From: a bacterium
GTDB taxonomy: Bacteria; Patescibacteriota; Minisyncoccia; Phycocordibacterales; JABMNX01
Direction of reading: 5' to 3'
DNA length: 61,833 bases
Assembly: GCA_002687905.1 (NCBI GenBank)
Contig: NZBM01000007.1
Location: forward strand, 1 to 61,833
Shown here: positions 963-60,734 of the stretch, piece after piece
How positions within the stretch are numbered: the first letter of the stretch is position 1
Layout: the number at the start of each line of letters is the position of its first letter
Made by a program: the position numbers and the translations under genes
The notes under the pieces: model-generated
Seen by the model: only the letters and a program-made list of their open reading frames with translations
What the model was told of the DNA's origin: nothing
Databases searched by the model: none

Positions 963-1637
963 TTATTCTAAGGCAACTGAATTCACTTGAGATTCATCAA
1001 AATTCTTAAGTTGCTTTCCAGTTTCATTGAGATATTCCTCCTCACTACCAAAGAAATCAAGGAGAGACTCATGCTGGATAACAGAGCGAAAGTTACATCC
1101 ACCAGAATAGTCAACATGGCTACTCCATTTGTATTTCTCCAAATACGCCAATGCTTTATTTGTGTTTTTAACTTTACCCTCGCGCCACTCTGGCATATAT
1201 AAATCTAGCGGATTGAAATGTATGTAATAAGGAATATATAAAAAATGCGCATCTGCTTTTATTAGCACTGATCGATATTTGCCTTGGAAGAGTGCGCCCG
1301 TGCGGTCGTATTTCTCGTTAAAATATTTTGCATACCCCATATTGAGTTTTTTCATGAACCTTGGAATGCCATCATCTACAACAGGGGACACGAGAAGGTG
1401 ATAGTGATTGGGCATCAAACAAAAACAATGAATCTTAACCAATAACCTCCTCTCAACTTTCCTATAAATATCCGTACATCCGATGTCGATAGCTTTCTTG
1501 TAGTGATAGTTGTTCGAGTTTGTGTTCTTTTGGTTATTAAACTGAAATAGATCATGAACAAAACGTAGATAATCTTGGTTGTCCATGAATATTTTACGTT
1601 TATCTACTCCACGATTTAATAAATGCCAAAAATCCAT
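963..1637 (-). CDS. REP-associated/IS200-like Y1 tyrosine transposase
   Basis: 'FWHLLNRGVDKRKIFMDNQDYLRFVHDL...HCFCLMPNHYHLLVSPV' with the HUH (HYH) motif of Y1_Tnp. Confidence 0.9.
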   Translation of the reverse strand: MDFWHLLNRGVDKRKIFMDNQDYLRFVHDLFQFNNQKNTNSNNYHYKKAIDIGCTDIYRKVERRLLVKIHCFCLMPNHYHLLVSPVVDDGIPRFMKKLNMGYAKYFNEKYDRTGALFQGKYRSVLIKADAHFLYIPYYIHFNPLDLYMPEWREGKVKNTNKALAYLEKYKWSSHVDYSGGCNFRSVIQHESLLDFFGSEEEYLNETGKQLKNFDESQVNSVALE

Positions 1638-1879: not shown

Positions 1880-3091
1880 ATGTTAATTTGTAGGAATTCT
1901 CTCCTGAGGCACATAATCCCCTTTGTTTTATTGGCCTTTTTGGTATTTTTAATTGCTCCAAATTCCGGTTTTGGAGTATATCCTGAAGTTAAGGAACTTG
2001 AAGGAAATAGAATGAGCTTTGATGAATTGGGTGAGTATTTTACAGATTTGACGGTCAAGAAAGGTGGAACTTATGGATTTGAAGTATTAAAGCGAGCCGA
2101 ACTTCCTCCTGGAACCGATTTACATTTTCTGGGGCATTTTGTGGGAGACGAGCTATACAGGCAAGAAGGGGTAAGTGGGATGAGTAAATGTACACATGGC
2201 TTTAGAAACGCATGTTCGCACGCGATGGTTATTGGAGCGATGGTTGAGTTTGGAGAAGGAGCACTTCCCCTTGTTAAGGAGGTATGCAAGGATGCGCCGG
2301 GCGGAAGTGGGGCTTACACAATGTGTTTTCACGGATTTGGTCATGGGGTTTTTGCTTATACTGGGTACAATTTTGAAGACACAGTGAAAATTTGCTCTCG
2401 TACCGGAACACCTGAAGCTAATAATAGAGAGTTTCCAGAATGTATCGGAGGGGCTGTAATGGAGCTTCTTGGTGGAGGAGGGCATGACAAAGAGCTTTGG
2501 GAGAAAGCAAGAGAGAAATATCTCTCAAAGACAGAGCCACGCTCACTCTGTGAGTTCTCATTTATGACAGACGAGATACGTCCCATTTGCTACACATATC
2601 TAACACCTCATTTATTTGAATTTGCCGGCGGTGATTTGGGACATTTAACAGAGGAAAACTATAGAGATGCATTTCTATATTGTGACGAGATACCAATAAG
2701 TCTTGAGGGCGACAGACTTTCCTGTTTCGGTTCTCTTGGAAAAGAGTTTGTGGTGCTTGCTCAAAACAGGGACGTAAGAAAGATTGACCAGATGACAAAC
2801 ACTCAACTAGATAAGGTGTACGAGCTATGCAAGATTACGGAAGATGAAGCGGGTCAAGCTGCTTGTGTAAGAAACGCTGTGCAGTCACTTTTCTGGGGAG
2901 GCGAGAATGATAGAGGTGCGGCAATTAGGTTTTGTTCATTAATTTATGATGATAAAAATCAGTTTGCGTGTTTCAGCGAACTTGTGGGTGCAGTCGGGTA
3001 CTATATAAAAGATAAATCTTATTACAGAGAGTTTTGTAGCGAACTTCCGGATGGACATATTAAGGGTTGTAGGAATACACTTTTAAGATGA
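1880..3091 (+). CDS. Membrane-anchored/secreted His/Cys-motif protein, paralogue A
   Basis: N-terminal hydrophobic segment; motifs HFLGH, CTHGFRNACSH, MCFHGFGHG, C-rich helical repeats; ATGA overlap with next gene. Confidence 0.85.
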   Translation: MLICRNSLLRHIIPFVLLAFLVFLIAPNSGFGVYPEVKELEGNRMSFDELGEYFTDLTVKKGGTYGFEVLKRAELPPGTDLHFLGHFVGDELYRQEGVSGMSKCTHGFRNACSHAMVIGAMVEFGEGALPLVKEVCKDAPGGSGAYTMCFHGFGHGVFAYTGYNFEDTVKICSRTGTPEANNREFPECIGGAVMELLGGGGHDKELWEKAREKYLSKTEPRSLCEFSFMTDEIRPICYTYLTPHLFEFAGGDLGHLTEENYRDAFLYCDEIPISLEGDRLSCFGSLGKEFVVLAQNRDVRKIDQMTNTQLDKVYELCKITEDEAGQAACVRNAVQSLFWGGENDRGAAIRFCSLIYDDKNQFACFSELVGAVGYYIKDKSYYREFCSELPDGHIKGCRNTLLR

Positions 3092-4086
3092 AAACAGAAT
3101 TTACAATATTATTAATTGTAGTATCGGCAGTTCTAGCTGTTTTTATATTTTCAAATATTGATATGGCTCCAGAGGATAAATTTAGGGGCTTGGCAGTAAG
3201 AGATTTTGAAAAGGAGCAAGAATTTTGGGATAAAAGAATTGATAAGGTTGGCGTAGATGTAGCTTATGTGGAGTTTAAAGAAGAGTATAAAGATTACCCA
3301 TATGGACCACAGCATACTTTAGCTCATATCTTCGGCATACTTTTATATGATAAGAAAGGAATAGAAGGTGTGGCGATTTGTGATGGGGCTTTTGCTTTTG
3401 GTTGTTATCACAGCTTTTTTGGTCTAGCAATAACGGAAGGTGGACTTGCAATGATTCACGATTTAGACAAGGCGTGTATTGCTGCTCATGGAGTAAAAGG
3501 TCTTGGATGTCCACACGGTATTGGGCACGGCATACTTTCTTTTGTTGGATACGACAATTTAGATGAAGCTCTTGATGAATGCAGAACTTTAACTTGGAAG
3601 GAGCCGATTGGAGGTTGTACTAGTGGGGTATTTATGGAATATAACTTTCTGACTATGGAAGACCCGCTTGGGCTCTCACACAGAGAGGAAGTGGAAGATA
3701 AACATTTTCCGTGTAGTTCTATTGAGGATAGGTTTAAACAGGCGTGCTATTTTGAGCAACCAACTTGGTGGAAGGTGGTTTATGCACCAGACGAAGGGTA
3801 TAGAAAGGTCGGAGAGCTTTGCGAAGAGGTTGAAGATACCTTAAACAGGGAAGCGTGCTTCAGGGGAATCGGGAACACAATTTCTGGGATAAGTGGTTTT
3901 GACATTGAATCAACAAAGAGCGAGTGTGAAAGTATGCCTGAAAGAGAGGGAAAGACACTGTGCCTTCAGGGTGCTGCGTGGCTTTTCTCTGCAGAACCAG
4001 GATTTGATAGTGTTTGGAAGAGTCTTTGTAGGGGATTAAATAAAGACGAAGAGTCGGTTTGTCTTTCAGGAGAAAATTTTATTTAG
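3088..4086 (+). CDS. Membrane-anchored/secreted His/Cys-motif protein, paralogue B
   Basis: N-terminal TM; HTLAH, CDGAFAFGCYH, GCPHGIGHG, GGCTSGVFME motifs align in order with paralogue A. Confidence 0.85.
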   Translation: MKTEFTILLIVVSAVLAVFIFSNIDMAPEDKFRGLAVRDFEKEQEFWDKRIDKVGVDVAYVEFKEEYKDYPYGPQHTLAHIFGILLYDKKGIEGVAICDGAFAFGCYHSFFGLAITEGGLAMIHDLDKACIAAHGVKGLGCPHGIGHGILSFVGYDNLDEALDECRTLTWKEPIGGCTSGVFMEYNFLTMEDPLGLSHREEVEDKHFPCSSIEDRFKQACYFEQPTWWKVVYAPDEGYRKVGELCEEVEDTLNREACFRGIGNTISGISGFDIESTKSECESMPEREGKTLCLQGAAWLFSAEPGFDSVWKSLCRGLNKDEESVCLSGENFI

Positions 4087-4087
4087 T

Positions 4088-5296
4088 ATGAACGTAAATA
4101 TTATACACAAATATATAGTTGCAGGGATTGTAATTTTGGTTGTTTTGGTGGGTTTGGGCTTTTTCTATATTAATAATGTTAACTCTGGCTACATTGCGAT
4201 TGCAGATGAAATTATAGAGACCTGCAAGAACGAAGGGTATAGGCCGGCATGTTATGACGTTGAAATACCAAAGGTTATGGATAGGGGACTTTCTATGGAG
4301 GAGGCCTTTGAGGTAACAAAAGTAGTGCAAGACAAGGATGATGCATACCTGTATTGCCACGTTTTGGGCCACTATCTTGCAATAAAGGAGACCGCCAAAG
4401 ATCCTAGCCGATGGAAGGAGGTTGTATCTAGAGCTCCGGGCGGAATATGCTCAAATGGAGCCATCCACGGCGCTTTCCAAGAAAGATTTCGTGTTGAATC
4501 ACTACCTGATGCAGAGATTGAAGAGCTGAAACTAGAGCTTGAAGGAGTTTGCGAAAAGAGAGAAAACTGGAACCCAACACCGCTTGAGGGAGCAACTTGC
4601 ACGCATGCATTTGGACACCTGACGATGTATGTAACTGATGCAAATATAGACAAGTCACTTATTCTTTGTGATGAGATTTCTAACAACACTGATGGAAGGG
4701 ACTTGAGACAGCTTTGTTACGATGGCGTCTTTATGCAGCTTTACCAACCCCTTGAGCCAGATGATTTCGCACTAATTGAAGGGCAAGAGATTGAAACCAA
4801 GTCAGAGGCGATAGCATTTTGTGATCAGTTTGATGGAGAGATACGAGGTGCTTGCATAAGCGAGTCGTGGCCACTATGGAGAGAAGATCTTCAGAGTAAC
4901 CCACAAGAGACAGTGGATTTTTGTTCGCGCCTTAAGAATGATCCCAAAGAGGAAAAGAGATGTTATACCGCAATATTTTATGTCTTAACTGCTCTTTCTA
5001 ATTTAGACGAAGAATGGGTGAGTAATTATTGTACTGGCATAGAAGCTAGTCGTCAGCCACAGTGTTTCGCAAATGCGGCGTCTCGTATGATAGAAACCGA
5101 CTGGAGAAATATTGATAGGGCGATTGCACTTTGTAAGGTGGCGGATGGTTTTGGGGTATCTGACGAGTGTTATGACGAGTTATTACTTTACTCATCTTAC
5201 AATTTTGTGATTGGGTCAGAAGAGTTTGATCAATTATGTGATAGTCTCCCAGACCCTTGGCGTGGTCAATGTTTTGCTAGAAGTATTGATATATAA
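4088..5296 (+). CDS. Membrane-anchored/secreted His/Cys-motif protein, paralogue C
   Basis: N-terminal TM; YCHVLGH, GGICSNGAIHG, ATCTHAFGH, LCYDGVFMQ motifs; repeated spaced Cys pairs. Confidence 0.85.
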   Translation: MNVNIIHKYIVAGIVILVVLVGLGFFYINNVNSGYIAIADEIIETCKNEGYRPACYDVEIPKVMDRGLSMEEAFEVTKVVQDKDDAYLYCHVLGHYLAIKETAKDPSRWKEVVSRAPGGICSNGAIHGAFQERFRVESLPDAEIEELKLELEGVCEKRENWNPTPLEGATCTHAFGHLTMYVTDANIDKSLILCDEISNNTDGRDLRQLCYDGVFMQLYQPLEPDDFALIEGQEIETKSEAIAFCDQFDGEIRGACISESWPLWREDLQSNPQETVDFCSRLKNDPKEEKRCYTAIFYVLTALSNLDEEWVSNYCTGIEASRQPQCFANAASRMIETDWRNIDRAIALCKVADGFGVSDECYDELLLYSSYNFVIGSEEFDQLCDSLPDPWRGQCFARSIDI

Positions 5297-5306
5297 TCAC
5301 AACGAT

Positions 5307-5798
5307 ATGAAAGGATTACTCATAGGGACTCTACTTTTCTTTCCACTCATCTCTTTTTCTCATGGCACTGGAGCTTCTCTTGAAAGAGTTGTAGACGGGA
5401 TACTTATAGATATAGGGTATTCTCCTGAAGAAATAGAGGCGGGAGTAAAAGCGCAATTTGACTTTAATATATTAAAAGAGAGCACAGAAGACGAAGTTAA
5501 CTTTAGTGACTTGTGGTTTCGTATAATAAAAGACGACAAAACATTTTTTGCTGGCGGGATACACAGACCATCTATAGGTCTTCCAACTGTTGCTTATATT
5601 TTTCCTGAAAGCGGTGAATATGAGCTTTCTGTAAGATTCCAGAAAGACAGAGAAGTATTGACCGAAAGCACTTTTATACTTGAGGTTAAAGAAAATAAAG
5701 AGAATGGAGAATCAACGCCTTTAGGTATGGTGGTTGTAGGACTTATTGGACTTATTGCCGGGGCTATTCTTGCTATTTTTGTTAGACGAAGGAACTAG
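5307..5798 (+). CDS. Secreted protein with signal peptide, predicted mature N-terminal His, beta-rich domain and C-terminal TM anchor
   Basis: MKGLLIGTLLFFPLISFS|HGTGAS...GGIHRPSIGLPTVAYIFPESGEYELSVRF...GMVVVGLIGLIAGAILAIFVRRRN; start chosen at ATG 5307. Confidence 0.75.
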   Translation: MKGLLIGTLLFFPLISFSHGTGASLERVVDGILIDIGYSPEEIEAGVKAQFDFNILKESTEDEVNFSDLWFRIIKDDKTFFAGGIHRPSIGLPTVAYIFPESGEYELSVRFQKDREVLTESTFILEVKENKENGESTPLGMVVVGLIGLIAGAILAIFVRRRN

Positions 5799-5819
5799 GT
5801 TGCGTGTTATAATCTAGCA

Positions 5820-6218
5820 ATGTTTAACAGAGTTTTAGTAATCATAGTTATAATCCTTCTTGGTTGGGTTGGCTACATCTTTTACCAAAAGCAAGGGAAC
5901 CCTCTTTCAGGAGACACTGCCGTTGGCGCAACTTCTTCAAAAGACGCTGATCACACTGTATTTATTGACGCAGATGGTTTTCACCCAAGCGAGCTAAACA
6001 TAAAGCTTGGAGAGAGAGTATTGTGGCAAGCGTCTGAGCAGCTTTGGGCATGGCCTGCTTCAAATCTTCATCCAACACACGAATTATATTCAGAATTTGA
6101 CCCGGGTAAGCCAATCGGGCCGGGAGCGTCGTGGGCATTTACTTTTGATAAGGTAGGAAATTGGGCGTATCACGACCACCTAAGGCCACAACTTAGAGGG
6201 ATTGTGAGGGTCAGGTAA
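5820..6218 (+). CDS. Cupredoxin-like anchored protein
   Basis: TM then 'VFIDADGFHPSELNIKLGERVLWQ...NLHPTHELY...WAYHDHLRPQLRGIVRV' plastocyanin-like pattern. Confidence 0.75.
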   Translation: MFNRVLVIIVIILLGWVGYIFYQKQGNPLSGDTAVGATSSKDADHTVFIDADGFHPSELNIKLGERVLWQASEQLWAWPASNLHPTHELYSEFDPGKPIGPGASWAFTFDKVGNWAYHDHLRPQLRGIVRVR

Positions 6219-6221
6219 GCT

Positions 6222-7250
6222 ATGAAGAAGGTAAGAGTAGGAATAAATGGTTTCGGAAGAATTGGCCGCTCTTTTTTTCGTATTGCAAAGGACAGGGATG
6301 ATATAGAAATAGTTGCGATAAATGATTTGGGAGATATTGAAAATCTTGCGTATCTTCTAAAGTATGATTCTGTATATGGAGTGAGTGATTTTGAAGTTGA
6401 AGTAAGGGGAGAAAATATAGTAGCAGGAGGTAGAGAATTCAAATTTTTAAGCGAGGACACTCCAGAGAATCTGCCGTGGGGCAAGTTAAATGTGGATGTA
6501 GCTCTTGAATCAAGCGGAGCTTTTACGAGTTACGAAAAATCGCAGGCTCACTTGAGTGCCGGAGCAAAGCGCGTTGTGGTGTCAGCTCCTGTTAAAGATG
6601 CGCCACCTTCAGGGGTTGTGGGGGCAACAGTTCTTATGGGAGTAAATGAAGATGTGTTAAAGATGTGCGATATAAGCTCAAACGCATCTTGTACTACGAA
6701 TGCAGGAAGTCCAATAATGCAGATTCTTAAAGAAACTATAGGAGTTGAGAAGGCACTTTTAAATACAATTCACGGATACACTGCGAGTCAGGGATTAGTT
6801 GACGGACCTTCAAAAAAGAAGGATTTCAGGCGCGGACGCGCCGCTGCGGTAAATATAGTGCCCTCAACAACCGGAGCTGCAATTGCCACAACCAAAGCTA
6901 TAACAGATTTGGAAGGTAGGTTTGACGGAATGGCAATACGGGTGCCCACGATTGCGGGATCAATCGTAGACATCACTTTCATCTCTAAAAAAGAGACTAC
7001 GGTGGAGGAAATAAATGAAATATTAACCCATGCAGCGGGCGAGAAAAGATGGAATGATATTTTCTCTGTAACGGACGAACCAATTGTATCAAGCGATATT
7101 CTAGGAAGTAGATATGCATCAATCGCAGACCTGTCATTTACTAGAGTGGTTGATGGGAATCTGGTAAAAGTACTTTCTTGGTATGACAACGAGGTGGGCT
7201 ATACATACACTTTAGTTGATCATGTAGCGAAAACCGGTCAGCACACATAA
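6222..7250 (+). CDS. gap: Glyceraldehyde-3-phosphate dehydrogenase
   Basis: VGINGFGRIGR, SNASCTTN, NIVPSTTGAA, SWYDNEVGY. Confidence 0.95.
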   Translation: MKKVRVGINGFGRIGRSFFRIAKDRDDIEIVAINDLGDIENLAYLLKYDSVYGVSDFEVEVRGENIVAGGREFKFLSEDTPENLPWGKLNVDVALESSGAFTSYEKSQAHLSAGAKRVVVSAPVKDAPPSGVVGATVLMGVNEDVLKMCDISSNASCTTNAGSPIMQILKETIGVEKALLNTIHGYTASQGLVDGPSKKKDFRRGRAAAVNIVPSTTGAAIATTKAITDLEGRFDGMAIRVPTIAGSIVDITFISKKETTVEEINEILTHAAGEKRWNDIFSVTDEPIVSSDILGSRYASIADLSFTRVVDGNLVKVLSWYDNEVGYTYTLVDHVAKTGQHT

Positions 7251-7699: not shown

Positions 7700-8342
7700 A
7701 ATAATTCCGGCAATAATGCCGAAGTCATACGATGAGCTGGAGGAGAAAGTGTCCTCGCTACTTGGAGTTGTGCCCGTGGTTCAGATTGATCTTATGGATG
7801 GAATATTTGTTAAAAGTAAAAGCTGGCCATATTTAAAAGGGGAATTAGTACCGGATTATTTACCAAATATTCACGAGATAGACTATGAAATTGATTTAAT
7901 GGTTAAAGACCCAAGAGATCGAGCGCACGAATGGGTTATGGCTGGAGCAAAAAGGATAATTCCCCACCTTGAGGCTTTTAAAAATCCGGCGGATGATTTG
8001 GCAGATTTAAGACACGATGATGTTGAGCTTGGTATTGCGGTAAATACCACAACTTCTAATGAAAAAATTGAGGAAGTAATAGGACTTGTTGATTTTGTGC
8101 AGTTTATGGGAATTGAGCGTATTGGATATCAGGGAGAAGTATTTGATGAGAGAGTAGTTGGGAAGATTATTTCTTTGCGTGATAAAAATCCTGAAATTAT
8201 AATTAGTGTTGATGGGGGAGTTAGTCTACTGAGCGCTCCTGAGTTAATTGAAGCCGGTGCAAATAGATTGGTTTCAGGTTCTACAATCTGGAAGAGTGAT
8301 AATATAGAAGAGACGATTGAGTCTTTAAAGGAATTGGTATGA
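7692..8342 (+). CDS. rpe: Ribulose-phosphate 3-epimerase
   Basis: IIPAIMPKSYDELEEKV...VQIDLMDGIFV...ISVDGGVSLLSAPELIEAGANRLVSGSTIW. Confidence 0.88.
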   Translation: MAEIIPAIMPKSYDELEEKVSSLLGVVPVVQIDLMDGIFVKSKSWPYLKGELVPDYLPNIHEIDYEIDLMVKDPRDRAHEWVMAGAKRIIPHLEAFKNPADDLADLRHDDVELGIAVNTTTSNEKIEEVIGLVDFVQFMGIERIGYQGEVFDERVVGKIISLRDKNPEIIISVDGGVSLLSAPELIEAGANRLVSGSTIWKSDNIEETIESLKELV

Positions 8343-9202
8343 GTCTAGTTGACGATAAAAAAGTATGTGAGTTAGAGGCAAAGGCAGTAGAGATTCGGGA
8401 GACTCTTATTGAGATGCTTGTTGAAGCCGGCTCAGGCCATACAGCAGGACCTTTAGGTATGGCGGATATTTTTACTGCTTTTTATTTTCATATTCTTAAT
8501 CACGACCCTAAGAATCCTAATTGGGACGAGCGAGACCGTTTAATACTTTCAAATGGACACATCACTCCAATTCGCTATTCTGCAATGGCACACTCCGGCT
8601 ATTTTTCAATTGAAGAAGCAAAGACCTTAAGAAAGTTTGGCTCACGTATGCAGGGGCACCCGGAGCGAGAGAAACTTCCAGGTGTTGAGACTACGTCTGG
8701 TCCGCTTGGCTCAGGTCTCTCTGAGGCAGCGGGAATTGCCTATGGTGCACGTATGGACGGTAAGAAATTCCGGGTATATTGCCTTATGAGTGATGCCGAA
8801 CATCAGGCTGGAAATTTATGGGAAGGGGCAATGTTTGCGGGAGACAACAAGCTTTCAAACATAACTGGAGTAATAGATAGAAACAATATTCAGATAAACG
8901 GTATGACGGAGAATGTTATGCCACTTGAGCCACTTGCTGATAAATACAGAGCGTTTAATTGGCATGTAATTGAGGTAGACGGCCATAATATTCGTGAGTT
9001 TATAAATGCAGTAGAGGAGTCAAAGGCAATATATGAAAAACCAACTGTAATAATTGCGCACACAATACCTGGAAAAGGAATAAAGGAGATTGAATTTGAC
9101 TATAAATGGCACGGCAAACCTCCAAAAAAAGAAGAAGCGGATAAATTCTTGAGAGAGTTAAGGACTTTAGGTGGCACAATAGAGTGTTACGATCAAGATT
9201 AA
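8339..9202 (+). CDS. Transketolase, N-terminal (TPP-binding) subunit
   Basis: GSGHTAGPLGMADIFTAFYF...GPLGSGLSEAAGIAYGARMDGKKFRVYCLMSDAEHQAGNLWEGAMFA. Confidence 0.92.
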   Translation: MSLVDDKKVCELEAKAVEIRETLIEMLVEAGSGHTAGPLGMADIFTAFYFHILNHDPKNPNWDERDRLILSNGHITPIRYSAMAHSGYFSIEEAKTLRKFGSRMQGHPEREKLPGVETTSGPLGSGLSEAAGIAYGARMDGKKFRVYCLMSDAEHQAGNLWEGAMFAGDNKLSNITGVIDRNNIQINGMTENVMPLEPLADKYRAFNWHVIEVDGHNIREFINAVEESKAIYEKPTVIIAHTIPGKGIKEIEFDYKWHGKPPKKEEADKFLRELRTLGGTIECYDQD

Positions 9203-9203
9203 T

Positions 9204-10193
9204 ATGATAGTTCCTGACGCAAAACTTCTAAAAGATGTGTTTGATAAAGAGAGTCTAGAAAAGGGCTCGACTCGTGATGGCTTTGGACGTGGAGTTATTG
9301 AAGCTGGGGAAAAAGATGAAAGGGTAGTGGTGCTTTGCGCTGATCTTGCTGAATCTACACGCTCGCATTGGTTTAAGGAAGAATTTCCGGAGCGCTATAT
9401 TGAGGTTGGAGTAGCAGAGCAAAATCTAGCAACTATTGCGTCAGGTCTAGCTAATTACGGAAAGATTCCTTTCATTACGTCATATGCCGCATTTTCGCCC
9501 GGAAGAAATAATGAGCAGATAAGAACCACGATTACTCTTTCAAATCTACCTGTAAAGATAGGGGGAATGCACGCCGGGGTCTCAGTTGGCCCAGACGGGG
9601 CAACTCATCAGCAACTTGAAGATATCGCGCTTATGCGAGTTCAACCGAATATGTGTGTTATTTATCCGGCTGATGTAGAGGAGGCTAGAAAAGCTACAGT
9701 AGCTTCCGCAAAACATAATGGTCCGGTGTATCTTCGTTTCGCGCGATCAAAGACACCTATTTTTACGAGCTCTGACTCCCCATATGAAATTGGAAAAGCA
9801 AATATGCTTTATGAAGGAGACAGTCCGGAAGTAGTGATAATTTCAACAGGTCCTCTTACATACAACGCACTAGTTGCGGCAAATGAGCTTTCTGACGAAG
9901 TCTCTGTTAGCGTACTTAATTTACACACTATAAAGCCAATGGACGAGGAGGCGGTATTAAATGAAGCAAAAAAGACAGGTGCGGTTGTAACGGTAGAAGA
10001 ACATCAAGTGGCAGGAGGAATGGGCTCTGCAGTTGCAGAATTTTTATCCCTCAATAACCCAGTTCCAATTGAGTTTATTGGAATTAAGGATCAGTTTGGC
10101 CAATCTGGCGAGCCAGATGAATTAGTGGAATACTATGGTATGGGGGTTGAGAGTATAAAAGAAGCGGTTAGAAAAGTAGTAAAGAGGAAATAA
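9204..10193 (+). CDS. Transketolase, C-terminal subunit
   Basis: RDGFGRGVIEAGEKDERVVVLCADLAESTRS...HHQQLEDIALMR-type sequence. Confidence 0.92.
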   Translation: MIVPDAKLLKDVFDKESLEKGSTRDGFGRGVIEAGEKDERVVVLCADLAESTRSHWFKEEFPERYIEVGVAEQNLATIASGLANYGKIPFITSYAAFSPGRNNEQIRTTITLSNLPVKIGGMHAGVSVGPDGATHQQLEDIALMRVQPNMCVIYPADVEEARKATVASAKHNGPVYLRFARSKTPIFTSSDSPYEIGKANMLYEGDSPEVVIISTGPLTYNALVAANELSDEVSVSVLNLHTIKPMDEEAVLNEAKKTGAVVTVEEHQVAGGMGSAVAEFLSLNNPVPIEFIGIKDQFGQSGEPDELVEYYGMGVESIKEAVRKVVKRK

Positions 10194-10639
10194 TGTTTAT
10201 AGAGCTTCTAATTCTAAGTTTTGTTGCGGCGTTTTTTGGAACGATAGTAATGACAGTTGGTCAGGAAATTGAGATCAGAATTAAGAAAAGACCCATAAGC
10301 TATACACTTGCAATTGCGATTTTTAAAATACTTCGTCTTGATTTTAATAAGCTAAATAAGGGAATGAAAATAGTTTCGAGCTATATAGTTCATTTTGCAT
10401 ATGGTACAGCGCTCGGTTTCCCTCTTGCTTTTTTCGAATATTTTGGATTTATGGATTTCTATATTGTACTTATCGTTTACTTTCTAATAGTCTGGATCCA
10501 AGGTCTTATTGTGGTTCCACTTCTTGGAATTGCAGGGTCGCCTTGGACGTGGGGACTTAAACCGGTCTTAACAGAGATGGTTCATAAATTTGTTTATTCA
10601 ATTGCTACTCTAATAATATTTACGAGTCTGGTTATATGA
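10193..10639 (+). CDS. Multi-pass membrane protein, unknown function
   Basis: Four hydrophobic segments; ATG overlaps tkt stop. Confidence 0.7.
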   Translation: MFIELLILSFVAAFFGTIVMTVGQEIEIRIKKRPISYTLAIAIFKILRLDFNKLNKGMKIVSSYIVHFAYGTALGFPLAFFEYFGFMDFYIVLIVYFLIVWIQGLIVVPLLGIAGSPWTWGLKPVLTEMVHKFVYSIATLIIFTSLVI

Positions 10640-51630: not shown

Positions 51631-52353
51631 TTATCCTTCTTCTTCAATAGTAGGAACACCGATGAAGCCCCCGTCATTAAGGATTGATTGAACAAAACCA
51701 TCGAGTGAGCTAAACGGTTGTGCCCCCTCAATAGGAACTTGTTCGTCTCCTACAATTATTACTGTGTGCGGAGTGCCGCGAGCACCACTGTCAACAGCTT
51801 CTTGGTAGCTTTTTGAAACTTCTTTTCTGAATTTTCTGTCATCAAGACATTTTTCAAACTCATTTCTATCTAGCCCTACTTCCTCCGCAATTTCGGGTAA
51901 ACGGTCCAGGTTTAGTCCATTGTTTGACGGAGTTACCTCAAACAATCTGTCGGCATATGCCCAGAATCCGTCATTTCCACCAACATCCGCTGCACACTCT
52001 GTAGCCTCGGCTTCAATAGTAGCCTTTGAGTGGAGTTGGGCAATTGGGAAGTGGCGGTAGACCCAGGCTACTGTTCCGTCAGCACCATACTTGTCTATTA
52101 TTTGGTGCATTGAATTGTGGAAATCCTTACAGAATGGACACTCAAAATCAGAATATTCAACAAAAACTATTGGAGCTTCTGGATTTCCAAGGATATGGTC
52201 ATCCGCGTTAACTGCGGGAACTTGTGGTTCGTCCTTAATATCTGTATCAGTCGGCTTATCAGAAGGTGTGCGATTAGTAAGATATATTGCTCCTCCAATT
52301 AGAGCGCCCGCTACTATTACTGCGATTGGAATAGTTAATTTGTTTTCTCCCAT
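51631..52353 (-). CDS. Membrane-anchored DsbA-like thioredoxin-fold protein
   Basis: N-terminal TM; VEYSDFECPFCKDFHNSMHQI; RGTPHTVI. Confidence 0.9.
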   Translation of the reverse strand: MGENKLTIPIAVIVAGALIGGAIYLTNRTPSDKPTDTDIKDEPQVPAVNADDHILGNPEAPIVFVEYSDFECPFCKDFHNSMHQIIDKYGADGTVAWVYRHFPIAQLHSKATIEAEATECAADVGGNDGFWAYADRLFEVTPSNNGLNLDRLPEIAEEVGLDRNEFEKCLDDRKFRKEVSKSYQEAVDSGARGTPHTVIIVGDEQVPIEGAQPFSSLDGFVQSILNDGGFIGVPTIEEEG

Positions 52354-56144: not shown

Positions 56145-56211
56145 AAAAAATTGTATTCAAAAAATGTTTAAAAATATTCAAAGAGGTATAGCAAAATAAA
56201 AAAGCCGGTCC

Positions 56212-56240
56212 GCAGCGGAAGGGAAAGTCCCTTCCGCTGC
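56212..56240 (-). terminator. Rho-independent terminator of the GC-rich gene
   Basis: On - strand gcagcggaaggga-ctt-tcccttccgctgc, then ggaccggcttttttatttt. Confidence 0.75.
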
Positions 56241-56265
56241 AGTACCGTACTTGTTGTGGTCGCCG

Positions 56266-56952
56266 TCAGGCTGGCACTATCTCGGCCTGATGTTCGAGCG
56301 GCTCGTTCTCTGGGCCTCCCACAAGTTTCGCGGGGAAACCGCTGTCACCGGGGTCCGGCCGGTCGTCCACGTCGGCGCCGGCGACCTCGGGCACCAAGAC
56401 ATGACCGCTCTCGCCGATCTCGAAGGCGTGCTCCACGCCGATGACGCCGCCGAGCTTGAGCATCGCGCGGAGCAGGTCGTCACGGTGGAAGCCGCCGTAA
56501 CCCGCGCTGTCGATCTTGCCGAAGGCCTGAAGTCTGCCGACGATGCTGCCGTACATGTCCGAAAGCGCCTCACGCTCGAACTCCTCGGACCACATGGCCA
56601 GGACCTCGGCGCAACCGGCCAGCGTGATGACCGTGGCGTCATCGTCCTCGATGATCTTCAGGAACTGGGCCTCGAGCTCGCCGGTGCCGTTGGCGGTGGC
56701 CAGGTCGCGAAGGCGCGCGATGTGGTTCTCGAACTTCTCGTAGCGACCCACGACTACTGCAACCGCCGCGCCGGAAACGGCGATGGCGGCGAAGTTGCCC
56801 AGGATGCGACACTCGCTGACTAGGTCCAGATGACCCTGCAAGACGCCCTGGCGGTAGATGTTGGAGGTCTCCGACGAATAGCCGAGGATGTTCATGATCG
56901 CACCCGGCAGGACAACGTGGTATTCGGGTAGTTTGTCGATCAGCTGGTTCAA
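56266..56952 (-). CDS. GC-rich hypothetical protein (likely horizontally acquired)
   Basis: TTG start preceded by GGGAGG; strong GC3 codon usage unlike neighbours. Confidence 0.65.
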   Translation of the reverse strand: MNQLIDKLPEYHVVLPGAIMNILGYSSETSNIYRQGVLQGHLDLVSECRILGNFAAIAVSGAAVAVVVGRYEKFENHIARLRDLATANGTGELEAQFLKIIEDDDATVITLAGCAEVLAMWSEEFEREALSDMYGSIVGRLQAFGKIDSAGYGGFHRDDLLRAMLKLGGVIGVEHAFEIGESGHVLVPEVAGADVDDRPDPGDSGFPAKLVGGPENEPLEHQAEIVPA

Positions 56953-57020
56953 TGTACCAACCTCCCATTTTATAGAACAACCCGCCAATTTGGCGGGATC
57001 TGCACCCTCTGCGCAGACCA

Positions 57021-58829: not shown

Positions 58830-59399
58830 ATGGTTTTTACAAAAAAGAAAAACCAACAAGCTTTGGCGTTTATTGTGCTCTCGGTATCAATTTTTGTTGT
58901 TTGGCATGCTGTGACTTTTAATAAAGAAGAAGTAGGAGGTTTTTCCTTTGAGAAAGTACCAGAGGATGTAGTCTTTTTAAGGCATGAGGAGGACGAAAGG
59001 ATTGCTGAGGAAGAAGGGGGTGTAGCTATGCTTCATTATGCTACGCCTGAGGCAATAGAAAATGGGGGGCCAATATATGGGCGCTTAGGACACACCATAG
59101 TTTCAATTGAGTATGAGATTCCAATAGACAGCATAGGAGAGCGCCCAATAGGGAAAGAAGGTGAAGGAGGATTTGATTTGATTATTGAGGAATTAGCGGA
59201 AGATAAGAATATTGTTTATGACCATATGCACATTGGTATAGCAAACTCACACACCGGGGGCGAACACCAAGATGATGGGCATAACCATGAACATAATTCC
59301 TCACAAAGCCTTCAGGGGGAAGGAGGAGATGTTTATTTGCTTCACTTTATGCTTATCTCGCACGAAGATGAGGTTAGGTACGGTCTAACTTGTAGTTAA
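58830..59399 (+). CDS. Membrane-anchored His-rich protein
   Basis: N-terminal TM; HMHIGIANSHTGGEHQDDGHNHEHNSS. Confidence 0.75.
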   Translation: MVFTKKKNQQALAFIVLSVSIFVVWHAVTFNKEEVGGFSFEKVPEDVVFLRHEEDERIAEEEGGVAMLHYATPEAIENGGPIYGRLGHTIVSIEYEIPIDSIGERPIGKEGEGGFDLIIEELAEDKNIVYDHMHIGIANSHTGGEHQDDGHNHEHNSSQSLQGEGGDVYLLHFMLISHEDEVRYGLTCS

Positions 59400-59483
59400 A
59401 GAGTCGCTCTTGTTGCTGGCTTTTGTTTACAGGTGTTTTGTGTGGGTATAGAATGAAACTGTAGTTATTTTAATTTGCTCTCT

Positions 59484-60734
59484 ATGAACAGTTCAAAAAA
59501 AGTTGTTGCAACAACGGTCCTTGTTGTGTTGGTTATTGGTGCTTATTACTTTATACACCAATCAGATGAAGTAGATATAACGGGTTTACATATTATGCCA
59601 AATGGCACGGTCATGAATGGTGCTGGCGAAATATTTAAGGATGCAGAAGTGCTTCCTGATGGAAGAATTAAGCTTGGCAATGGAAGAATTGTAGAGAGAG
59701 ACATATTAAGCTTTCCAAAGCGCGGACCAGAAGACAGGGTGGAGAAATTAGAATATGTGATGAAGGATGGAGTTAAGGAGTTCAATCTTTCCATAGATGA
59801 AGTTCAGTGGGAATATGCCGACGGTAAGTATGTTCACGTTTGGGCATTTAATGGCCAGATTCCAGGACCTGAAATCCGTGTCACAGAAGGGGATAAGGTT
59901 CGTGTTGTTGTAAAAAACAATCTTTCGTATATGCCAGGGACTACGGTCCATCACCACGGGTTATTACTAAATGGAAGTAAATTTGACGGCGTTCCGGGGC
60001 TTGATCAATATCCTATAAAACCTGGCGAGACATTTACTTATGAATATACAGCTAATAATGCGGGGACTCATTTCTATCATACCCACGGCTCAAATCATAA
60101 AGACGTGGCAATGCAAGACGATATGGGTCTTTCAGGCGCTTTTATTATTGAACCTCGAAATAGATTTGACGAGAGGCATTCTTCAAATTATGACAAAGAA
60201 TGGGTTTACATGCTTGACGAGTGGGCAGTTGGAGACAGCGGAGTAAACCACGCACTCCATCTTATGGGTGAGGACGGAGAGCACGTACACCAGACCGCAA
60301 ACGTTTTTACGATAAATGGGAGAATATTTCCAGATAATTTAACTGGAGAGGACACCATCAAAGTTGATGAAGGCGATAAAGTTTTAATTCGCTTAATAAA
60401 CAATGGTAGCGAGGCAATTCATCCAATGCATACCCATGGACATCAGTTTGAGTTAATTGCCATTGACGGGAATCTCGTTCCTTTTGCTGCTCGGCAAATA
60501 ATGGACGTTATAACAGTAAATCCGGGTGAGAGGAGAGATATTTTAATGAGAGCCAACAACCCTGGAACGTGGCTATTCCATTGTCATAACATACACCACG
60601 CTATGGGAGGTATGATCCTGGGCTTCTTTTACAATGGATATGAGCCGTGTTGTTTGGACAATCCAGATGAAGCCGAAGAGCTCTTAGAAGATCACACTCA
60701 TGACGGTAGCGAAGGAGAAGACCACGGGCACTGA
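59484..60734 (+). CDS. Multicopper oxidase
   Basis: VHHHGLLL, THFYHTHGSNH, HPMHTHGHQFEL, WLFHCHNIHHAMGGM copper motifs; His-rich tail. Confidence 0.94.
   Translation: MNSSKKVVATTVLVVLVIGAYYFIHQSDEVDITGLHIMPNGTVMNGAGEIFKDAEVLPDGRIKLGNGRIVERDILSFPKRGPEDRVEKLEYVMKDGVKEFNLSIDEVQWEYADGKYVHVWAFNGQIPGPEIRVTEGDKVRVVVKNNLSYMPGTTVHHHGLLLNGSKFDGVPGLDQYPIKPGETFTYEYTANNAGTHFYHTHGSNHKDVAMQDDMGLSGAFIIEPRNRFDERHSSNYDKEWVYMLDEWAVGDSGVNHALHLMGEDGEHVHQTANVFTINGRIFPDNLTGEDTIKVDEGDKVLIRLINNGSEAIHPMHTHGHQFELIAIDGNLVPFAARQIMDVITVNPGERRDILMRANNPGTWLFHCHNIHHAMGGMILGFFYNGYEPCCLDNPDEAEELLEDHTHDGSEGEDHGH

Follow-up and report, generated by a model that had tools for sequence, protein, structure and literature searches.

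Bacillus YcnJ is composed of CopC, CopD, and YtkA domains, all of which support the supply of copper to oxidases (PMC12154828, PMC13344008). COA7 is a solenoid of helical hairpins, each with one disulfide, in which the paired cysteines are separated by 9–11 residues (PMC6505684). Here we describe a locus that has features in common with both systems. It is formed of three consecutive genes, A, B, and C, and is located in a contig of 61,833 nucleotides from a bacterium of the phylum Patescibacteriota (NZBM01000007.1, assembly GCA_002687905.1). The whole contig was analyzed and is referred to below as the window; it belongs to a 591 kb genome with a completeness of 99.7%. The domain family that holds the products of A, B, and C is named CHG here.

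Like the YtkA domain of YcnJ and CtaK, the CHG domain is predicted to be extracytoplasmic, and it can be positioned C-terminally to CopC and CopD within one polypeptide. However, CHG has no YtkA or FixH match, is predicted to be all-alpha and disulfide-stapled, and contains five conserved histidines. With the Sel1-like, cysteine-rich proteins Hcp of Helicobacter and human COA7, CHG shares a putative hairpin solenoid with one disulfide per hairpin, the 9–11 residue spacing, and a location that is extracytoplasmic or, for COA7, in the intermembrane space. In contrast to them, CHG lacks a Sel1 match, neither Hcp nor COA7 is among the 50 fold matches listed for it, and the features given for the two proteins in the accessible part of PMC6505684 do not include a five-histidine site. 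EfeO resembles CHG fusion proteins in being an exported protein of two domains, an atypical cupredoxin and an all-helical domain for metal binding, but CHG has no detected M75 domain, a copper rather than iron context, and a predicted disulfide solenoid.

The balance of the evidence leans towards CHG being an extracytoplasmic five-histidine module for copper binding and copper transfer. The family combines an invariant signature of a putative metal site with occurrence in several phyla and with fusions to CopC-CopD, cupredoxins, and cytochromes. If copper is the metal that CHG handles, bacterial copper import, so far not well characterized, gains a further component, and Patescibacteria would have a multi-gene extracytoplasmic copper system despite their image as minimal fermenters.

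Identification of the CHG family

Genes A (positions 1880–3091), B (3088–4086), and C (4088–5296) are encoded on the forward strand. Their products are putative membrane-anchored CHG-domain proteins of 403, 332, and 402 amino acids, with 17, 14, and 18 cysteines, respectively. The original prediction, made from the sequence of the window, described three consecutive divergent paralogues, of which A and B overlap by ATGA and B and C are one nucleotide apart. Both junctions were confirmed, the open reading frames are present, and the proteins are 20–24% identical to each other in pairwise BLAST comparisons (E = 1e-12 to 4e-4). A profile built from 61 sequences, all from other genomes, recognizes A with 158 bits (E = 1e-46), B with 198 bits (E = 1e-58), and C with 111 bits (E = 5e-32), and matched none of 600 shuffled sequences. 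The three proteins had been said to share an ordered set of motifs; in the form H-x3-H ... H ... C-x-H[AG]-x-GH, this order is present in A, B, and C and in none of 600 shuffled copies. The heme-attachment motif CxxCH is absent from all three, also as described.

Each of the three proteins begins with a hydrophobic segment, as do 166 of 171 CHG proteins from the whole family; because open reading frames of GC-rich contigs were assigned by mechanical calling, some of the N-termini extend too far. In agreement with the original prediction, CHG proteins are predicted from these segments to be exported and to function outside the cytoplasm.

The absence of a named family for A, B, and C withstood all comparisons. 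None of the three proteins has a significant match in Pfam, NCBIfam, or PHROGs, and searches of the PDB by sequence, using single queries and a profile, gave no significant match either. Foldseek comparison of the AlphaFold model of B to the PDB and a viral library produced no match at E ≤ 0.001. A literature search on the HGxGH motif found no relevant paper. When 116 CHG members were compared to Pfam at E ≤ 0.1, there was no match to Sel1, YtkA, FixH, hemerythrin, oxidase, M75, or Efe. Scattered matches to SOR and other Pfam families, with E of approximately 6e-4 in three members, were judged to be due to chance. The CHG family is apparently undescribed in the family, structure, and paper collections searched.

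Relatives were detected in 13 of 98 related genomes. Within the phylum, 27 of 380 genomes have them, 22 at E < 1e-10, and within Actinomycetota 18 of 397. A query built from ten closer sequences identified 266 stretches with CHG relatives in the species collection. The named neighbors in this search are Patescibacteria, and the best 80 stretches include representatives of Chloroflexota, Acidimicrobiia, Binatota, Gemmatimonadota, Nitrospira, Thermoanaerobaculia, and Alphaproteobacteria as well as one archaeal metagenome-assembled genome. Some of the carriers are contigs of metagenome-assembled genomes, and single placements may therefore be binning errors. A survey of 251 Chloroflexota genomes found CHG in the seed genome only, and viral contigs contained no CHG relative. 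Two plasmid records identified by tblastn carry CHG genes, pKP058 of Kitasatospora purpeofusca and plasmid 1 of Gemmatirosa kalamazoonensis. They are the best cases from named organisms, and these plasmid-borne members make CHG testable.

Five histidines and paired cysteines of the CHG domain

The original prediction treated histidines and cysteines as one mixed motif set. Five histidines (HxxxH; H; HxxxH; alignment columns 75, 79, 107, 144, and 148) occur unchanged in 168 of the 176 full domains, despite an overall identity of approximately 20%. All five are kept in the window: H82, H86, H114, H151, and H155 of A (codons 2123, 2135, 2219, 2330, and 2342), H76, H80, H108, H143, and H147 of B (codons 3313, 3325, 3409, 3514, and 3526), and H91, H95, H127, H173, and H177 of C (codons 4358, 4370, 4466, 4604, and 4616).

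The cysteines follow a different pattern. Both members of the pair 74/101 are present in 121 sequences and neither in 53; the corresponding numbers are 82 and 93 for the pair 97/105, and 152 and 24 for the pair 244/255. A single cysteine does not occur in any of the three pairs. At least one of the pairs 74/101 and 97/105 is present in every sequence, and the remaining pairs are invariant or nearly so, with the partners 10–11 residues apart. Since the cysteines are gained and lost as pairs without single losses, they probably form structural disulfides and are not ligands. The conservation pattern thus separates a candidate metal site of five histidines from a putative disulfide scaffold.

Because the invariant site is composed of histidines only and the cysteines appear structural, the possibility that CHG is a thiol-disulfide redox system, with conserved cysteines as the working residues, is weakened. 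The 14–18 cysteines per protein, one fusion to DCC1-MauE, and a gene for a DsbA-like protein in another part of the window would suit such a system. However, the cysteine pairs are all-or-none and spaced as staples, there is no conserved CxxC active site, and the invariant residues are histidines, which makes this explanation scarcely credible.

The AlphaFold model of B, calculated from an alignment of 116 sequences, is all-alpha, with a predicted local distance difference test (pLDDT) score of 91.9 and a predicted template modeling (pTM) score of 0.86. The five histidines of B lie in predicted helices 72–96, 101–118, and 140–153. The best Foldseek matches of the model are all solenoids, none of them significant. 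The model indicates that CHG is an all-alpha solenoid of helical hairpins, most of which would be stapled by one disulfide. The modeled helices together with the covariation of the cysteine pairs bear out the disulfide-stapled helical tail proposed originally. From the register of the repeats, we infer that the five histidines converge in space, and by their conservation they look like a metal site. One member of a CHG cluster (L034, positions 4644–5699) has kept the cysteines and lacks the motif histidines; it is a degenerate and perhaps structural subunit.

The solenoid also suggests a COA7-like assembly factor of cytochrome oxidase that binds heme or reduces disulfides. Disulfide-stapled helical hairpins with 9–11 residues between paired cysteines are indeed features of COA7 (PMC6505684), and genes for CtaG and CcsB are found near the CHG gene of Kitasatospora. 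Nevertheless, none of the 116 members has a Sel1 match, CxxCH is absent, and COX1 is missing from the window genome and from 26 of 31 CHG-positive Patescibacteria, so that we consider this explanation very improbable. Oxidase assembly as a general role of CHG was rejected for Patescibacteria on the scarcity of COX1.

Fusion partners and copper context

The neighborhood survey that had been proposed for co-occurrence of CHG with cupredoxins found the association, very often in the form of gene fusion. Among 171 dereplicated CHG proteins, approximately 100 consist of CHG alone and approximately 50 include a cupredoxin identified by motif, mostly N-terminal, but half of the profile seeds used in the scan of named genomes were cupredoxin-fused, which biases the fusion frequencies. 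Pfam assigned Cupredoxin_1 to 31 of 71 extensions, CopC to five, cytochrome c to two, and a DCC1-like domain with sub-threshold MauE to one. The fused cupredoxins have lost the cysteine ligand, and their four histidines (HPTH and HDH) are invariant.

Two proteins from Acidimicrobiia (L137 and L139) have the domain order CopC-CopD-CHG, with Pfam matches above the cut-off for CopC (1e-11) and CopD (2e-8). The same order occurs in several more Actinomycetota, where CopC was identified by Pfam or on the basis of its motif alone. The CHG gene of Kitasatospora lies 106 bp upstream of a Caa3_CtaG gene (7e-74), and genes for a CopD-YtkA protein and for CcsB are nearby. A protein from Solirubrobacteraceae (L184, positions 5563–6972) carries a cytochrome c domain N-terminal to CHG (Pfam Cytochrome_CBB3, 4e-8). 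Another, of 827 amino acids (L045, positions 7950–10433), combines a DCC1-like thiol-disulfide oxidoreductase, a MauE-like membrane domain, and CHG.

On the basis of these fusions and neighborhoods, copper is the most likely metal for CHG. The metal part of the originally proposed metal or redox system would thereby be narrowed to copper, whereas its thiol-redox part has lost ground. It is improbable that CHG handles iron, zinc, or manganese in a manner similar to EfeO. The fusion model described below does match the fold of Escherichia coli EfeO, among others, probably through the cupredoxin domain of EfeO, and the all-histidine cupredoxin differs from a classical copper site. However, the CopC-CopD fusions and the linkage to CtaG point to copper, and no M75 or Efe match was found in Pfam.

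Several gene neighborhoods contain additional components. At L240, L248, and L253 in Actinomycetota, cupredoxin-CHG genes adjoin genes that by eye look like those for formate dehydrogenase alpha subunit, FdhD, and alcohol or formaldehyde dehydrogenase. A membrane protein that begins with HGFGEQIDLPVP past its signal peptide and has no Pfam match (L106, positions 5483–6883) is encoded beside genes for a CHG-cupredoxin fusion, a cupredoxin, and a DoxX-like protein.

Genes D and E

The N-terminal-histidine protein and the cupredoxin that the original prediction placed after the three paralogues are encoded directly downstream of C on the forward strand by genes D (5307–5798) and E (5820–6218). 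The product of D has a signal peptide and a C-terminal transmembrane segment, and is a candidate histidine-brace copper protein. Its predicted mature N-terminus, HGTGAS, starts at His19 (codon 5361), and there is one further histidine, H86 (codon 5562). The mature N-terminal histidine is present in nine of nine readable homologues, including that from the window, with the cleavage site read by inspection. The second histidine occurs in just four of the nine, and a histidine brace is therefore possible but not general. The product of D is similar to CopC and other histidine-brace proteins in that a histidine is predicted to be the first residue after cleavage of the signal peptide, but it differs from them in lacking a match to the CopC profile and in the limited occurrence of the second histidine. 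Homologues of D were found in 10 of 31 CHG genomes, and in three of these (G451, G071, and G004) they are in or near CHG clusters.

The product of E is a putative membrane-anchored cupredoxin. It contains no cysteine, and its candidate ligands are H84 and H87 (WPASNLHPTH) and H118 and H120 (YHDH). The protein itself resembles amicyanin with an expectation value of 0.011. The model of the fusion protein L107, which contains the same domain, matches amicyanin with a template modeling score (TMt) of 0.72 and the purple cupredoxin of Nitrosopumilus with a TMt of 0.81. With the fold taken from this homologue, E is predicted to encode an unfused cupredoxin of the amicyanin/plastocyanin type. The fused domain and, by prediction, E share the fold of the type 1 proteins amicyanin and plastocyanin, but have four conserved histidines (HPTH and HDH) and no cysteine ligand.

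Lineages of A, B, and C

A tree built from 88 domains places A in a clade of nine sequences, B in a clade of 19, and C in a clade of 13, with support values of 100, 96, and 100, respectively, in the Shimodaira–Hasegawa-like approximate likelihood ratio test (SH-aLRT). Each of the clades includes distant families of the phylum. The genes are adjacent, as the term tandem paralogues implied, but the tree rules out their origin by a recent tandem duplication and instead identifies three ancient lineages that have been retained throughout the phylum. The lineages often occur with one another and with cupredoxin-fused members, and the clusters they form comprise as many as eight genes.

The lineages differ in alignment columns 111 and 184. 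Glutamates are present in both columns in 37 of 52 cupredoxin-fused domains and in five of six CopC-fused domains. In contrast, the residues are isoleucine or valine and glutamate in lineage A, mostly glycine (glycine or threonine) and glutamate in lineage B, and two glutamines in lineage C. These differences next to the histidines are consistent with A, B, and C being subunits of one assembly with distinct roles.

Proposed role of CHG proteins

We propose that copper arriving at the outer face of the cytoplasmic membrane would be bound by the five-histidine site of CHG, which is contributed by three successive helices. CHG may exchange the copper with all-histidine cupredoxins, encoded by E in the window and fused to CHG elsewhere, and with N-terminal-histidine proteins, such as the product of D in the window and CopC elsewhere. 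It may also partner with CopD-type importers and fill the place of the YtkA domain in YcnJ. The family, its export signals and lineages, the five-histidine invariance, the cysteine pairing, and the fusions come from sequence comparisons, whereas we infer the clustering of the histidines, the identity of the metal as copper, and the transfer role. The weakest step of this proposal is the choice between transfer and catalysis.

Catalysis by CHG, as a metalloenzyme, is a real but minor possibility. The five histidines together with Glu111 (within HxxxE) and Glu184 would form a mononuclear or dinuclear copper or iron redox centre, with cupredoxin and cytochrome c as electron partners, CopC-CopD as the copper supply, and the two glutamates being those of the fused and stand-alone types. 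The ligands of hemerythrin are five histidines plus two carboxylates, and CHG could offer the same number: in the alignment columns, the histidines are invariant and Glu111 and Glu184 are mostly kept outside lineages A–C. Presence of both glutamates in fused types and their replacement in the lineages of A, B, and C is as expected for active versus altered subunits, and the two cytochrome c fusions and the DCC-MauE fusion would also fit an enzyme. However, few residues other than histidines, glycines, and cysteines are near-invariant, the cupredoxin partner without cysteine has no classical electron-transfer (type 1) site, and Pfam detects no hemerythrin or oxidase match in the 116 members. 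With slightly more reserve, CHG might be regarded as a metalloenzyme of a new class, dependent on copper or on copper and iron together, that occurs in several phyla and has a five-histidine and carboxylate centre on a disulfide-stapled solenoid. Patescibacteria would then have expanded it into multi-subunit assemblies, in which A, B, C, and cupredoxin-fused members are encoded together, in cells mostly without a terminal oxidase.

Several observations weigh against copper transfer. In addition to the seed bias in the fusion frequencies, neither CopD nor COX1 was found in the window genome, and thus neither is needed. COX1 is present in only five of 31 CHG-positive Patescibacteria, which means that the oxidase is not a general target. 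The co-occurrence with multicopper oxidase in the phylum is weak (4/21 versus 21/358, p = 0.04, window genome excluded), and cupredoxins and cytochromes are found alongside redox enzymes as well.

Genomic surroundings of the CHG cluster

A TATAAT hexamer at positions 1868–1873 of the forward strand, six nucleotides before the start codon of A, might conceivably be the −10 box of a leaderless transcript; it matches the consensus as a hexamer only, and is not among the boxes reported by the promoter scan. The gene for GAPDH starts 3 nucleotides past the end of E.

The only obvious copper oxidase found in the window genome is a multicopper oxidase at positions 59475–60734 of the forward strand (Pfam Cu-oxidase_3, 2e-38). 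Its best partial matches in NCBIfam are to CopA-type oxidases and, more weakly, to copper nitrite reductase, none above the cut-off. It is preceded by a gene for a histidine-rich exported protein without a family match (58830–59399). An exported DsbA-like protein with the motif FECPFCK is encoded on the reverse strand (51631–52353) and could introduce the numerous disulfides predicted for A, B, and C.

The region at positions 56200–57000 has a GC content of approximately 65%, against a background of 38–40%, and contains long overlapping open reading frames on both strands; it is either foreign DNA or an assembly chimera. Two genes that by eye resemble REP-associated tyrosine transposases are located just upstream of the CHG cluster (963–1637, reverse strand) and near the end of the contig (61112–61783, forward strand).
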